Shown one piece after another: positions 7,399-35,784 of a DNA stretch of 64,000 bases. Position 1 is the first letter of the stretch; each line of letters opens with the position of its first letter. The stretch covers positions 1 to 64,000 of the forward strand of contig CANQJC010000004.1 in the NCBI GenBank assembly GCA_947624165.1. The letters run 5' to 3'. This DNA comes from an uncultured Clostridia bacterium (GTDB lineage Bacteria; Bacillota; Clostridia; UBA1381). Both the position numbers and the translations under genes were made by a program. The notes below the pieces were generated by a model, which did no database searches, was not told where the DNA came from, and was given only the letters and a program-made list of their open reading frames with translations.

Positions 7399-7767
7399 GT
7401 TGTGACCTTACGCGGGTGAAATGCGCCCCGCGTAACAGGACTGATAAACGATGAAACGGGAGGTTGCGGCGGAAGGGTTTCAAAAAGCCCGACGAAGCCG
7501 GTTTTTCCGCGGAGTGAGTCCGATTCATGAAACCGGGCGGCAGTTAAGTATTCGTGCGCTTTAGGTGTTTTGCGCCCGCGGCTCTGACGCGGAGCGCGGC
7601 GATGAAGCGCGCGGTGAAAATTGACTAACTTTGCCCGAATATACGATAAAAAACGATATTCGGGTTTTATTAAAGGGTGATGCGAAACACCCGGCGGTGT
7701 GTGCAATTTTCTTTATGCGCTGTCGTGCAGAACTACAACACAATAAAATTTTCAAGGAGGGAAAAGT
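7399..7767 (+). promoter_or_regulatory. Structured leader of the S10 operon with attenuator-like hairpin
   Basis: About 370 nt of untranslated leader. It contains a 9-bp hairpin (7408-7416 with 7427-7435), a CCGGTTT/AAACCGG long-range stem, and a 9-bp hairpin (7634-7642 with 7656-7664) followed by TTTTATT that looks like an intrinsic terminator about 100 nt before rpsJ. Near 7688-7691 a CACC can pair either with GGTG of 7676-7679 upstream or GGTG at 7696-7699 downstream. Ribosomal leaders often bind a product of their own operon (L4 in E. coli); which ligand acts here is unknown. Confidence 0.55.
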
Positions 7768-25731: not shown

Positions 25732-28572
25732 TTATTTTGAGCTGTCGAGCAGCGATTCGAAATCGGAGCAAGGCAGAGGTCTCGAATAGAAGAAGCCCTG
25801 TACCATATCGCAGCCCGCGTCCTTGAGGAAGTCACGCTGCGCTTTCGTCTCCACGCCCTCGCATATTGTTTTAAGCTGTATTTTTGATGCCATTGTAATT
25901 ATCGCTTCGACAATTACCCTGCCGCGCACATCCGTTTCCGCGTTGTCGATGAAAACCTTATCGATTTTAAGAGTGTCGATCGGCACTTTACGCAGCAGAT
26001 TGAGCGATGAATATCCGCTTCCGAAATCGTCCATGGAAATACTGAAACCGCGTTTTTTCAGGTCGTATATAAGCTCTATCGCGCTGCTGTCGGCTTCGCT
26101 GAATATACTTTCGGTAATTTCCATTTCTATGTACTCTTTCGGGATCTGATATTTGCTCACGAGAGAGTCAAGCTTTTCCGCGAATTTTTTGTCGCCCAAA
26201 TGACAGCGCGACACGTTCATGGATACCGGCACGACAGGCAGACCGCGGCGCAAGCGTTCCTTCAGCGTCTTGAACACGGATTCATATACGTAAAAATCAA
26301 GATTTATGATAAATCCGTTCTGTTCAAACAGCGGCACGAACAGTCCGGGAGAAATCAGACCCTTCTCCCTGTGGTTCCAGCGCACGAGTGCTTCCGCGCC
26401 GATAATTTTGTCGCTCGAAAGCTCGTACTTGGGCTGATAGAATACGACGAACTCACCCCTGTGCAGCGCGTGTACCATCTCCACCTCGATATTGTTCTTT
26501 GTGTCTAACTGCGCCGCCATCTCGTCTGTAAAATACCGCAGATAATTTGTGCTTCTGCCGGGCGTTTCGTCCTTTGCGATATTCGCCTTATCTATATAGC
26601 TTGACAGCGGGATCTTCGGGTCGTAAGACGGTATCGGACACACGCCCGTCTTTATCGGTACGCGATATTCCGACGAATCGTGTATATGTATGTCTATATG
26701 CTCGAGAGAATCAAGCAAAACGCGGTTTTCCGCTGTATCCTCCACAAGGATAATAAAATTATCGCTTTGCAGTCTGGCATACAGTCCGTTATCCTTGAAT
26801 ATCTTTGCAATCTCGTTTGATATGCTCACAAGCGTTTGGTCGCCGATTATGTGACCGAATCTGTCGTTTATGAGCTTAAAATTCCTTGCGTCGACAGACG
26901 CGAGCAGGAAAGGCTTATCGGGATTTTTCGCGAGCATTTTCTCAGCCGTTTTATAGAAATACTGACTGTTATGTATGTTGGTGAGAGAATCGCTTTGCGC
27001 GAGCATCTTAAAATACCTTTCGCGAAGCTTGAACACGGCTATTATCGCGATCAAAGCGAGCAGCGCGGCGATAAGCAGCCATTTGTGGCGGTAAAGCATA
27101 TCCCTTACGTTATACACGTAGGAATTGCTCATCGCGTACATTTCGATACCGTCCTCCGCGCCTTTGAGCGGCGTATATGAAATAGAATCGTTTATAAGAT
27201 TTACCACGTCCTGCGGACATGTAACCTTTGAAATTCCGAGACTTACGGGTATCGTCATGGTTTCGTCGCCGAGTGCTTTCAGACGCGGATGCGTCGACAG
27301 GCTTGTTTTTGTGTGCATATCTATCGACGAGATGAGCGCGCCGTCCACCGAACCGAATTCAGCGGCGCGTATAAGCGAGTTTACCGAGCGGTACTGCTTT
27401 ACGGTCCATGACGGATATTCCTCGGCAAGATAATTTTCGATCCATACGTCGTCCTTTAATACGCCGATTTTATGCTCCGCGCCGTCCGAAAGCGTCTCGA
27501 CGCTTTCCTTCACTATCGGAACGAAATCGAGCGACGTATACGGCTTTGACGCTTCTATCAGTCCCTGCGTCGAGCCTGAGACGGTAAGAATAATATCCGC
27601 TCTGCCTATAATGATGCTGTTCATCGTTATATCTTCCTGTTCGCCGGGTACGTACACAAGCTCCAGGTTACAGTTTTGAGCAATTTTTTTAAGCTCCTCA
27701 ACATAAATTCCCGTATATTCCGAAGTCTCCTGGTCGAGGTAAGCCAAAGGATAATGATTGTTCGATACGAAAACGCGCAGCTTCTGCTGCGTCTTTGACG
27801 CGCGGTTGGCTTCGGGCGTAAGTGGAAGCATATTCGCATACGGTATATTAAAATAATTTTGATAAAGATCCGACATGAAGAACGGAGCGACCGCTTCATA
27901 ATCGGTCAGTACGGAATTAAGGAATGAAAGCATCTGCGCGTCGCCTTTTTTAACGGCGCAGTAATAGTCGAACTGTCCGCATTTAGCCGCAATACGCAGT
28001 CCGTCCGGCGCGGATGTCGCCGGAGTGAGTATCGCCGAAACGCTCTGCGACTTTGCCGCTTCATAGAGCGCGTCTATATCGTTAAAATAAATCGGAGTAA
28101 AAGTAAAATTGTTTTTCGCCGCGTATCGGGATAAATCGGGGAGGAAGTAAGAATCCTTAAGCATACCGATCTTCATGCCCGTGAAATTGGCAAAATCCTC
28201 AAAATATATGTCGCTTTCCGTTGAAGTAAGCAGGGTAAGGAACCCCGTAGCCATTGGCTTTGAGGTGTAGTCGAGCACGGACGCGAGAGCGTCGCTTTTC
28301 GGCACCATGCAAAGGAAATTCACCGCACCCGAATTAAGCGCGCCAAGCCCCTCGGAGAGGTTGAAATCCTTTACGATGTTAAGGGCGGTATTGTCCGCTT
28401 CGGTGAATACGTCCTTGATGCTCGAACGCGCGTAGTCCGATATGTTGTTCCCCAAAAATTCATAGTCGGCGAGTATACCCGCATTATACGTTTTTTCCGC
28501 GTAAACGGTGAATGATGAAAGCACAGGTATAATCACGAAAAAAGCGAATAAAAGCTTTTTAATGTTCTTCAT
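25732..28572 (-). CDS. Dual solute-binding sensor with degenerate GGDEF and EAL domains
   Basis: 946 residues. Signal/anchor segment at about 4-25. Two extracytoplasmic periplasmic-binding-type sensor domains follow (about 30-250 and 262-480, the second clearly SBP_bac_3-like: [16 protein letters not shown]). A membrane span lies at about 498-516, then a GGDEF domain (about 525-670) and an EAL domain (about 685-946). The GGDEF signature is replaced by QSDNF near 602-606, so cyclase activity is unlikely. The EAL motif (EALVRW, about 727-732) and [10 protein letters not shown] are intact, predicting c-di-GMP hydrolysis controlled by an extracellular small ligand. The ATG at 28572 has GAGG just upstream; an in-frame ATG at 28587 has none. 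A TATAAT at 28616-28611 is the likely -10. Confidence 0.92.
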
Positions 28573-28674
28573 TCGGTCAATCCTCATTTAATAATTTTTT
28601 TCTACAAAATATTATATAACATTTTGTACAAATAAGCAAACATTATTTTAAAAAAATGTTATTTTTTTTTCAAT

Positions 28675-28741: not shown

Positions 28742-30220
28742 GTGGAGGAGTATAACATTTACAATGATATAGCGCAAAGGAGCCAGGGCGACGTGTACAT
28801 AGGCGTTGTCGGTCCCGTGCGCACAGGCAAATCCACATTTATAAAGAAATTCATGGACTTGCTGGTGATACCCAATATTGAGAACGTGTATCGGGCGGAA
28901 CGCGCGCGCGACGAGCTGCCCCAGTCCGCGGCGGGCAGGACGATAATGACCACCGAACCGAAATTCATACCGAACGAGGCGGTCGAGATCACGCTCGGCG
29001 ACAACGCGCACCTAAAGGTACGCATGATAGACTGCGTGGGATATATTGTCGACAGCTCTCTCGGTTACGTTGAGGACGGCGAGCCGAGAATGGTTACGAC
29101 GCCGTGGTTTGACGAGCCTATCGCATTCAACGAAGCAGCTGAGATAGGTACAAAAAAAGTTATTACCGAACATTCCACAATAGGACTTGTCGTCACGACC
29201 GACGGAACTATTACGGACATCGAGCGTGAAGACTACGTGGAAGCGGAGAACAAAGTAATAAACGAACTCAAGGCGATAAATAAGCCGTTTATCGTACTTC
29301 TCAACTCGACCGCGCCGCGTTCGCAGCGGGCGCAGAGCCTGAGGAACGAGCTGAGCGCACGCCACGGCGTTCCTGTTATTGCCGTGGACTGTGAGGAGCT
29401 TACCGCATCGGACATACATGATATAATAGAAACGGTGCTGTTTGAATTCCCGCTCCGCGAGATAAACATTCGTATTCCCGACTGGATAGGGGACCTTGAC
29501 AGCGACCACTGGCTCAGACAGGATATCTACGGCGCGGTCATGGATAACATAGGCGGCGTAAACCGCATACGCGACGTAAGAGATCTGTCGTCCGGCATAG
29601 ACAGCCGCGAATTTATAAAACGCGCGTATATCGAGGGCATGGATCTGGGAAGCGGCAACGTCAAAATGTGTATCGAGCTGCCGCAGCCGTTGTTTTACAG
29701 GGTGCTGGGCGAAACGTCGGGGTTTGAAATCGACAGCGAACACCAGCTCATGACGCTTATGGAGGAGCTGGCTTCGATAAAAGCCGAGTACGATAAGGTC
29801 GCGTTCGCGCTCCATGAAGTTATGGAAAAGGGTTACGGGATAGTTTCGCCGTCTACCGATGAACTTTCCCTCAACGAGCCGAAAATCGTCAAGCAGGGCG
29901 GTAAATTCGGCGTGAAGCTGAAGGCGTCCGCGCCGTCCATACATATGATACGCGCCGATATCGAAACTGAGGTAAGTCCGATAGTCGGCACGGAGAAACA
30001 GTCGGAGGAGCTCGTGCATTACCTTCTCTCAGAATTTGAGTCCGACCCGACAAAAATATGGCAGTCAAATATATTCGGCAAATCTCTCTACGAGCTTGTA
30101 AACGAGGGACTGCACAATAAACTGTCGCGTATGCCCGAGTCGGCGAGAATGAAGCTGCGCGAGACGCTTCAGAGGATCATAAACGACGGCAGCAACGGAC
30201 TTATCTGTATAATTTTATGA
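28742..30220 (+). CDS. spoIVA: Stage IV sporulation protein A (spore coat ATPase)
   Basis: 492 residues, the usual SpoIVA length, from a GTG start with AAAAGGAGG at 28722-28730. The N-terminal NTPase domain has Walker A GPVRTGKST (24-32) and a DCVGY-type switch near residue 97; the middle and C-terminal domains follow, ending in the conserved hydrophobic tail SNGLICIIL used for spore-surface localisation. In Bacillus the protein polymerises with ATP on the forespore to form the coat base. It shows that the organism is at least descended from endospore formers. A lipoprotein gene follows 22 nt later. Confidence 0.97.
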   Translation: MEEYNIYNDIAQRSQGDVYIGVVGPVRTGKSTFIKKFMDLLVIPNIENVYRAERARDELPQSAAGRTIMTTEPKFIPNEAVEITLGDNAHLKVRMIDCVGYIVDSSLGYVEDGEPRMVTTPWFDEPIAFNEAAEIGTKKVITEHSTIGLVVTTDGTITDIEREDYVEAENKVINELKAINKPFIVLLNSTAPRSQRAQSLRNELSARHGVPVIAVDCEELTASDIHDIIETVLFEFPLREINIRIPDWIGDLDSDHWLRQDIYGAVMDNIGGVNRIRDVRDLSSGIDSREFIKRAYIEGMDLGSGNVKMCIELPQPLFYRVLGETSGFEIDSEHQLMTLMEELASIKAEYDKVAFALHEVMEKGYGIVSPSTDELSLNEPKIVKQGGKFGVKLKASAPSIHMIRADIETEVSPIVGTEKQSEELVHYLLSEFESDPTKIWQSNIFGKSLYELVNEGLHNKLSRMPESARMKLRETLQRIINDGSNGLICIIL

Positions 30221-30242: not shown

Positions 30243-30947
30243 ATGTTAAGACGTTTGTTTATTCTCGGCGCGGCGGCGTTATGCCTGTGCGGCTGCGCCG
30301 TCGGCGGTATACGCTCGGAGAAGGGCATGAAGGAATATGAAACCGATTATTCGAGCGTCCGCGCCGAGGTCATAAGCTTTGACGGCATGGAGGACGAGGA
30401 GTTTGAGGACGCGCTCAACGAAAAAATCGAGCAGAGCGTCGAAAGCGATATGATCGCATTTGACAGCGAAGCGTCCGACAGCTCGGAAAACGTGCGTATG
30501 GGGAATAAATGCATAATGGAAATAAACTGGAACGAGGAATATAATAAAAACGGATTTCTGAGCATTGTGGAGGAAAAGTATACATACACCGGCGGCGCGC
30601 ACGGCGCGACGGTACGCATACCGAGGAACATTGACGTTTCCGGCTCAAAGGAGATTGAATTGAAGGATCTGTTCGAAAACGACGCTTATGTAAACACGCT
30701 CAACAGAATGATAAACGAGCTTGTGAACGAACACCCCGAAGAATACAAAGATTTGTGGGCAAAGCCGGAGATACAGCAGTCGCATCAGACCGACTTTTAT
30801 ATAAACGATGACGATAAGCTTGTGATTTTTTTTCAGCCCTACGAGCTTTCCTATTATGCGCGCGGCTTTGTTGAATTTCCGTTGTCTCTCGAGGAGCTTG
30901 GCGGATACATGAAAGAAGAATACAGAAGATTGGCTGTCAGAGAATAA
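30243..30947 (+). CDS. Lipoprotein with DUF4163/DUF3298 (RsiV-like) domains
   Basis: 234 residues. A lipobox LCGC ends at Cys18, predicting lipid anchoring outside the membrane. Residues about 30-110 resemble DUF4163 and 125-225 DUF3298 (motif TGGAHG at about 116-121 and the LKDLF segment), the pair found in the extracellular part of anti-sigma factor RsiV and in PdaC. It lacks any cytoplasmic anti-sigma part, so it is not RsiV itself; lysozyme or peptidoglycan binding is a possibility only. The start has two possible GGAGG sites. It is probably cotranscribed with spoIVA. Confidence 0.75.
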   Translation: MLRRLFILGAAALCLCGCAVGGIRSEKGMKEYETDYSSVRAEVISFDGMEDEEFEDALNEKIEQSVESDMIAFDSEASDSSENVRMGNKCIMEINWNEEYNKNGFLSIVEEKYTYTGGAHGATVRIPRNIDVSGSKEIELKDLFENDAYVNTLNRMINELVNEHPEEYKDLWAKPEIQQSHQTDFYINDDDKLVIFFQPYELSYYARGFVEFPLSLEELGGYMKEEYRRLAVRE

Positions 30948-30963
30948 GCGACAGCCTTTTTTT
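30932..30963 (+). terminator. Terminator overlapping the lipoprotein stop
   Basis: GGCTGTC (30932-30938) pairs with GACAGCC (30950-30956), followed by T7; the stem's left arm is inside the coding end. Confidence 0.88.
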
Positions 30964-30993: not shown

Positions 30994-31027
30994 TAAAAAA
31001 ATACGCCGTTCCTTAACGGAACGGCGT
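30994..31027 (-). terminator. Terminator for htrA-side transcription
   Basis: Perfect 10-bp stem ACGCCGTTCC/GGAACGGCGT (31003-31012 with 31018-31027), followed on the minus strand by T A T7 (complement of 30994-31002). It lies 200 nt after the htrA stop, so the htrA transcript would carry a long 3-prime region. Confidence 0.88.
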
Positions 31028-31228
31028 CAAAACAAATACATTTTGGAGGTAGATGTTTTTATTGGGGGGGTTATACGGCGCGGCGCGCCGTATTTTATAC
31101 AGCAACAAATATCTGAGCGATATTTGTAAGCTTCGGGGGGACCCTTGCCTTTGGGGAAAGGCAAGGGCATATGAAAAAAAGGATGGTATAGGCTGCCTTG
31201 CGACAGCCGTCAAGTAAAACTGTATTGC
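31028..31228 (-). other. Hairpin array with C-rich gaps, candidate 3-prime-end sRNA of htrA
   Basis: Read on the minus strand after htrA: a 5-bp hairpin (31208-31204 with 31195-31191) with T7 some 10 nt later, an 11-bp hairpin (31142-31152/31157-31167), a 9-bp hairpin (31105-31113/31119-31127), an 8-bp hairpin (31073-31080/31086-31093), then the terminator. The unpaired segments between them hold C6 (31135-31140), C7 (31064-31070) and CTACCTCC (31045-31052), all able to pair with Shine-Dalgarno sequences. Whether it is expressed as a separate RNA is unknown. Confidence 0.35.
31053..31217 (+). CDS. Possible 54-residue small protein
   Basis: An open frame on the opposite strand of the hairpin array. 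ATG at 31053 follows GGAGG (31045-31049) by only three bases. The predicted peptide has three Cys (residues about 25, 32, 48) and a basic centre; I recognise no family. The frame runs through four hairpins, which is unusual for coding DNA and argues for chance. No promoter is seen. Kept only as a low-confidence call. Confidence 0.15.
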   Translation: MFLLGGLYGAARRILYSNKYLSDICKLRGDPCLWGKARAYEKKDGIGCLATAVK

Positions 31229-35339: not shown

Positions 35340-35427
35340 GGCGTGCGCATCCGCACGCCGTCTGAAAGCTACGCTTTCAGCCAATTTTGAACAGAGCGGA
35401 TAAAAAAGTTCCCAAGAAAACTTTTTT
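35340..35427 (+). terminator. Hairpin cluster ending polA transcription
   Basis: Three hairpins follow the stop: GGCGTGCG/CGCACGCC (35340-35359), CTGAAAGC/GCTTTCAG (35362-35380) and AAAAAAGTT/AACTTTTTT (35402-35410 with 35419-35427). The last resembles a terminator with its T run in the stem. Confidence 0.5.
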
Positions 35428-35513
35428 ATCGTTGATGTTTACTGACGCACATGTCGTCAGCAAACCATACGAAACGGCATAAAGCCGTTCCGTACACGCG
35501 CAATCTTGCGTTT

Positions 35514-35728
35514 GTAGGGGCGACCCTTGCGGTCGCCCGTCTCCGACAACCCGATGTCGACGGCACCGTAGGGGCGGTCATCGGCCGCCTGTTAAAACCC
35601 CTCAGTCACACTGCGTGTGACAGCTCCTTTGCTACGGCATACGAGCAAAGCTCTATGCCTACGATGCTAAAGCATCGTTCACCTATTGGGGGAGCCTTAC
35701 GTAGGGGCGACCCTTGCGGTCGCCCGTC
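35514..35728. repeat. Cluster of GTAGGGGCGACC-type repeats with a hairpin-rich core
   Basis: A 27-base unit starting GTAGGGGCGACCCTTGCGG, internally palindromic (GGGCGACC/GGTCGCCC), is present at 35514-35540 and again, identical, at 35701-35727; a diverged copy GTAGGGGCGGTCATCGG lies at 35568-35590. Between them (about 35598-35696) are hairpins TCACAC/GTGTGA, GGCATA-GAGC/GCTC-TATGCC and ACGATGC/GCATCGT, flanked by CCCCTCAG and GGGGGAGCC. From memory, similar intergenic repeats occur in many copies in gut Clostridia. The 450-nt gap holds no gene. Confidence 0.75.
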
Positions 35729-35745
35729 CACGCCGTAAACACACC

Positions 35746-35760
35746 TATAAATCATAATTT
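35746..35760 (+). promoter_or_regulatory. Weak candidate metal-regulator operator
   Basis: A short AT-rich dyad TAAAT-CATA-ATTTA about 25 nt before the transporter ATG. It resembles half of a Firmicute Zur/Fur box but is too short to assign. Confidence 0.2.
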
Positions 35761-35784
35761 ACTGTTCAAGGAAAGGATATAACG

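Follow-up and report, generated by a model that had tools for sequence, protein, structure and literature searches.

The htrA locus

The stretch of DNA analysed here, 64 kb long and referred to as the window, carries on its minus strand a gene for the serine protease HtrA (Table 1). The protein matches the Pfam families Trypsin_2 (2e-35) and PDZ_2 (7e-15); it also matches the NCBIfam model degP_htrA_DO at 4e-87, which is under the cut-off of that model. A hairpin array starts at the htrA stop codon (31231-31229, minus strand) and comprises five hairpins and an intrinsic terminator, the whole element occupying 30995-31228. On the other side, a PdaC/DUF3298 gene (30243-30947) converges on htrA. 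Judged by eye, a terminator hairpin of its own (GGCTGTC...GACAGCC TTTTTTT, 30931-30963) seems to overlap the stop codon of this gene, so that the convergent intergenic interval after htrA would be clean.

Elsewhere in the window, spoIVA is complete (28742-30220, three Pfam domains), a sign that sporulation genes are kept in the lineage. A 951-aa protein encoded at 25732-28587 appears, from inspection of the ORF translation by eye, to have substrate-binding domains, a membrane segment and GGDEF/EAL-like domains, and an S10-Clostridia ribosomal protein leader (Rfam RF03136) at 7442-7542 scores just over the gathering score.

Table 1. Features of htrA and of the downstream RNA element, in window positions.
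Feature	Positions	Strand	Basis or remark
htrA, membrane-anchored trypsin-like serine protease with PDZ domain, 413 aa	31229-32470	-	ORF
AU-rich conserved 5' element GCAAUACAGUUUUACUUGA, directly 5' of H1	31210-31228	-	Similar sequence before H1 in htrA- and recQ-linked copies
H1 hairpin, GGCUGUC-GCAA-GGCAGCC	31191-31208	-	Fold; covariation
Near-invariant single-stranded linker ACCAUCCUUUUUUUCAUA	31170-31187	-	Almost invariant among 25 diverse family members
H2 hairpin, GCCCUUGCCUUU-CCCC-AAAGGCAAGGGU	31141-31168	-	C4 in loop (31153-31156); compensatory changes
Unpaired C6 immediately 3' of H2	31135-31140	-	C4-C7 in nearly all members
H3 hairpin, ACAAAUAUC-GCUCA-GAUAUUUGU	31105-31127	-	Compensatory changes
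H4 hairpin, AUACGGCGCG-C-CGCGCCGUAU	31073-31093	-	Fold; equivalent helix with compensatory changes
Unpaired C7	31064-31070	-	Fold; unpairedness across units
H5 hairpin with C-rich loop	31029-31059	-	CUACCUCC in loop (31045-31052); helix nearly invariant within genus
Intrinsic terminator, 10-bp stem then AUUUUUUU	30995-31027	-	U-tract on same strand in congeners

An earlier note on this DNA had described four hairpins on the minus strand, separated by unpaired C6, C7 and CTACCTCC and closed by a strong T7 terminator. The array is real, but the count is five plus the terminator; all three C-rich segments are unpaired, but CTACCTCC (31052-31045) is part of the H5 loop; and the T7 run is present at 31001-30995, just beyond the region that had been delimited. 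The most conserved part, the linker, was absent from that description. C6 and C7 are the sole G/C runs of at least six in the window, and 464 kb of the source genome contain 13 of at least six and one of at least seven. In the H5 loop, most congeners have ACUCCCCC, versus CUACCUCC in the source genome.

Structure and strand of the RNA

The predicted fold has an energy of -87.4 kcal/mol, compared with -48.4 +/- 3.9 for 200 dinucleotide shuffles (z = -10.0), none of which was as good. Among 25 diverse sequences, 97.3% of the H2 cells are paired and seven of its nine pairs show compensatory double changes; no shuffle matched its covariation score, and slid versions of the helix pair at only 34-57%. 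For H1 to H5 in 14 congeners, 99.2% of cells are paired, with double changes in nine pairs and no shuffle as high in score. Individually, H1 covaries in three of seven pairs (99% of cells paired; 14 species), H3 has compensatory changes in four of six and the helix equivalent to H4 in two, the latter two helices being 100% paired in the 14 congeners. H5 and, within the genus, H2 are nearly invariant and thus neutral for covariation there. Across 47 units, a set that includes the probable coding false positive L104, C-runs of at least four are 90% unpaired versus 31% for other Cs, and the linker is 79% unpaired on average. A linker-terminator pairing proposed by RNAalifold was set aside as a product of poorly aligned terminator columns.

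The strand of the RNA is that of htrA, fixed by U-G/G-U pairs and by the side on which the U-tract of the terminator lies. Plus-strand hairpins do have GGGGGGACC and GGAGG in or near them, and an RNA read in that direction might offer GGA motifs to a CsrA-like protein. We consider this very improbable: the U-G/G-U pairs preserve the helices on the htrA strand, the U-tract terminators of the congeners are on the minus strand, and the promoter of recQ-linked copies (see below) reads the same strand as the htrA-sense RNA.

Conservation and distribution

A DNA search found the same DNA in all 15 of 15 congeners and also, within the family, beyond this genus. Fetching the htrA orthologues placed the element just downstream of htrA and in the same sense across species, a linkage that holds in most other genera of the family. 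Across copies, between 42 and 244 nt separate the htrA stop from the core while the unit stays intact; the unit is therefore separable from htrA. The consensus order is an AU-rich 5' element (AGUUUUAAUUG-like), H1, ACCAUCCUUUUUUUCAUA, H2, a C4-C7 run, lineage-specific hairpins with C-rich loops and the terminator. In the source genus these lineage-specific modules are H3, H4, a C-run and H5 with its ACUCCCCC loop; in the genus g15 the module is a terminator with a short C-run in its loop (AUCCCCG).

The earlier note had proposed a covariance search against other Clostridia, and such a search yields a conserved, covarying family: models built on the linker, H2 and the C-run (A2, R1) match 45 of 70 family genomes at E <= 0.001, the weakest of these including chance or coding matches. 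In a class-wide sample of 391 genomes, matches at E <= 1e-5 are confined to family members. When about 85,000 species genomes were scanned with a pattern, 44 stretches were returned, of which 40 score 48.9 bits or more; the remaining four are weak and unrelated. Model matches beyond the family (Desulfuromonadales, Mucilaginibacter and two others) were rejected, being weak, within open frames and without the hairpin-C-run unit; neither the class sample nor the species-wide pattern scan gave a convincing match outside the family. By record title, the carriers are Candidatus Ornithomonoglobus, Ca. Avimonoglobus, uncultured Clostridia and Oscillospiraceae MAGs, and Lachnospiraceae bacterium MD329, which has no MAG label and may be a cultured isolate. 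Rfam 15 has no match at gathering score in the region of the element, and when seven family members were compared with Rfam, the best overlapping match was GcvB, at 25.3 bits versus a threshold of 42. We are highly confident that the element is a real, structurally conserved RNA family.

Sequence of a different nature lies at 35350-35780 of the window: a hairpin-rich repeat, dispersed and REP-like (GTAG plus hairpin), with GTAGGGGCGACCCTTGCGGTCGCCC units and 12 genome matches. An ORF that spans this repeat (35451-35738) is probably spurious. Since both stretches combine G/C runs with hairpins and have similar short words, the earlier note had entertained the alternative that the element is a degenerate dispersed repeat of this type, and had named multiple copies in the genome as grounds for giving up the regulatory RNA. 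The source genome (1.76 Mb in 40 contigs, 82% complete) holds one copy, by DNA search (which adds short word matches) and by covariance model, as opposed to 12 matches for the 35.5-kb repeat; the synteny with htrA across species and the covarying helices also argue against a dispersed repeat or mobile hairpin element, which we regard as next to excluded. Copies elsewhere in the family have a promoter and a terminator of their own (see below), so the element is very probably a genuine regulatory RNA.

Copies linked to recQ and the probable origin of the RNA

Several species of the sister genus g15 have a second copy, located upstream of recQ instead of after htrA. Seven of these recQ-linked copies were examined over their whole length: they have a sigma-A promoter (e.g. 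TTGCAT-N17-TATAAT) roughly 110-150 nt ahead of the core, and in most of them a hairpin and T-run follow before recQ; in one (L123), recQ seems to have a further promoter past that terminator. In another of the seven (L141), recQ was not found adjacent: at L141 1-600 (G068:C7) the autonomous copy is followed, in place of recQ, by sequence that by eye resembles the start of a group II intron. A short ORF ending in the AU-rich element of recQ-linked copies was dismissed on inspection of the reading frames, as the frame is not conserved.

The consensus promoter scan detected no consistent promoter upstream of htrA-linked copies. These copies have the marks of a 3'-UTR-derived RNA, lying at the mRNA 3' end, sharing its terminator and, in that scan, being devoid of a promoter of their own. 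A promoter inside the AU-rich element was considered and rejected: a transcript starting there would lack the 5' strand of H1, a helix that covaries, and there is no conserved -35.

The lack of a consistent promoter and the invariable sense orientation of htrA-linked copies would also suit a cis-acting 3' UTR whose hairpins just protect or terminate the htrA mRNA as an exonuclease barrier, the C-runs being incidental. Such a role alone is rather improbable, given that the recQ-linked paralogues have their own promoter and terminator and are unrelated to htrA, that the unpaired C-runs and linker are conserved beyond the needs of a barrier, and that the unit stays intact over the whole range of htrA spacings. 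Since the paralogues upstream of recQ have their own promoter, the RNA need not depend on htrA expression. The simplest reading of these arrangements is an RNA that would act in trans and that would derive from the mRNA 3' end after htrA and from a gene of its own upstream of recQ. The 3'-end-derived regulatory RNA of the earlier note is partly supported: the element is conserved, covarying, htrA-sense and linked to the 3' end across most of the family, its C-runs are unpaired, and its expression, its release from the htrA mRNA and its pairing with Shine-Dalgarno sites would be consistent with this; the amendment is the promoter of the recQ paralogues.

Predicted pairing with Shine-Dalgarno regions

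The targeting statistics cover 464 kb of the source genome, sampled in stretches, and pattern searches. Start codons were picked without using the Shine-Dalgarno sequence, and 320 first ATGs were compared with 1060 internal ATGs. GGGGG precedes nine of the former versus one of the latter, and GGGG 26 versus 17; with G-runs so enriched in initiation regions, C-rich loops would favour Shine-Dalgarno sites. For the linker, C7 and the H5 loop, duplex energies are better at initiation regions than around internal ATGs, a preference absent from the H3 and 5'-element controls and not significant for the C6 segment alone (p = 0.2). Shuffled pyrimidine-rich controls likewise favour initiation regions, so the signal is one of suitability and not of specificity for the exact sequence. 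Pairing with Shine-Dalgarno sequences is a likely mechanism.

GGATG, which is exactly complementary to a portion of the linker, occurs in none of the 320 initiation regions, and near-full linker complements are no commoner in the genome than those of a reversed control; long perfect targets of the linker, showing no excess over control, were discarded. As the invariance of the linker goes beyond what generic Shine-Dalgarno pairing needs and its complement is not enriched, either one conserved target or a bound protein may hold it invariant. The scarcity of exact complements and an invariance greater than mixed Shine-Dalgarno pairing would require both suit an RNA in which ACCAUCCUUUUUUUCAUA and the C-runs bind or sponge an RNA chaperone or cold-shock-like protein instead of mRNAs. 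We think this rather improbable, given that the separate C-runs and C-rich loops shift position as in known mRNA-pairing sRNAs (PMC9410917).

Two species were found to have genes with a G6 run ahead of the start codon, and one pair of these genes is orthologous. It encodes a 217-aa protein (G000:C12:8694-9347; L261:115-768) that has no NCBIfam match and, by eye, two transmembrane stretches. Its GGGGG Shine-Dalgarno is kept in 15 of 16 congeners. The control pyrB, likewise chosen for a G6 site, keeps its site in 10 of 16, which suggests that G-rich Shine-Dalgarnos can be conserved by descent. The predicted pairing of the sRNA with the 217-aa protein gene is weakly better within its own species than across swapped species (p = 0.04, without phylogeny correction), and we regard this gene as a candidate target.

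In most congeners the linker reads GAUACCAUCCUUUUUUU, which by eye resembles the 3' tail of 16S rRNA, GAUCACCUCCUUUCU. A molecule with three to five anti-Shine-Dalgarno segments might conceivably mimic the ribosome tail at several sites and capture several mRNAs at once, a doubtful proposal for which we see only a slim chance. If it were true, the message of a stress protease would also bear a general brake on translation initiation, and this brake would have been duplicated as a free-standing gene in one genus.

Comparison with known small RNAs

Conserved C-rich regions that are predicted to be single-stranded among hairpins, together with a terminator, characterize the C-rich sRNAs of Gram-positive bacteria, and the element has them all. 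It is a new, previously uncatalogued RNA family of a known kind. By analogy, its architecture is closest to that of IsrR, an iron-sparing sRNA of Staphylococcus with three stem-loops and a terminator, whose three C-rich single-stranded regions, in loops or beside stems, pair with Shine-Dalgarno regions (PMC9410917). Both consist of hairpins and a terminator with several unpaired C-rich regions, one of which is 4-7 C long in IsrR (PMC9410917). However, IsrR is Fur-regulated and free-standing, and has its synteny in Staphylococcus, whereas the element is mostly at the htrA 3' end in another class, its hosts being Clostridia, and has the invariant linker CCAUCCUUUUUUUCAU. FsrA of Bacillus also pairs with Shine-Dalgarno sequences through a C-rich motif (PMC9410917), as predicted for the element; it differs in being iron-regulated and dependent on Fbp chaperones, and no sequence match with the element was found.

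RNAs released from mRNA 3' ends are few in Gram-positive bacteria; in S. aureus, RsaC is produced via RNase III and RsaG via RNase J (PMC9438474). The predicted release of the element would be similar, but the parent genes differ, as would the nucleases, and a promoter-driven paralogue elsewhere, which the element has, is not reported for either in that review (PMC9438474).

The csRNAs of Streptococcus belong to the CiaRH regulon and have an unpaired anti-Shine-Dalgarno/anti-AUG segment between hairpins (PMC3091779). The element, too, has an unpaired anti-Shine-Dalgarno-like segment between hairpins, from which a functional resemblance is predicted, but it has more hairpins. Streptococcal htrA is controlled by the same regulator, CiaRH, as the csRNAs. 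Identity with csRNAs was ruled out: the CiaR direct repeat NTTAAG-N5-TTTAAG was found upstream of 0 of 46 units and the csRNA core UCCUAAA in 1 of 46.

Proposed mechanism and biological meaning

The reading we favour, and hold to be reasonably probable, is that of a trans-acting C-rich sRNA predicted to pair with Shine-Dalgarno sites and repress translation. In the source genome the htrA mRNA would carry the RNA at its 3' end, and a nuclease, most likely RNase Y, would release it by cutting within the AU-rich element directly ahead of H1. This element is a candidate RNase Y processing site because the G/A step directly before H1 fits the weak consensus of the B. subtilis enzyme, a G/A within an AU-rich stretch that is followed by structure (PMC11780869). 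H1 and the terminator would stabilise the RNA, which would use the linker and the C-rich segments to pair with G-rich Shine-Dalgarno sequences, blocking ribosome binding. Envelope stress, by inducing htrA, would then lead to the repression of a set of proteins, possibly of the envelope.

The element would add a structurally supported sRNA family, outside all Rfam families, to a poorly studied group of gut Clostridia. If the proposed mechanism is true, the htrA locus would be dual-function, encoding a protease and a regulator. The two genomic contexts would allow production of an sRNA from an mRNA 3' end to be compared, in nature, with production of the same sRNA from its own promoter, which bears on the origin of 3'-UTR-derived sRNAs. 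Lachnospiraceae bacterium MD329, if cultured, may make the sRNA idea directly testable.
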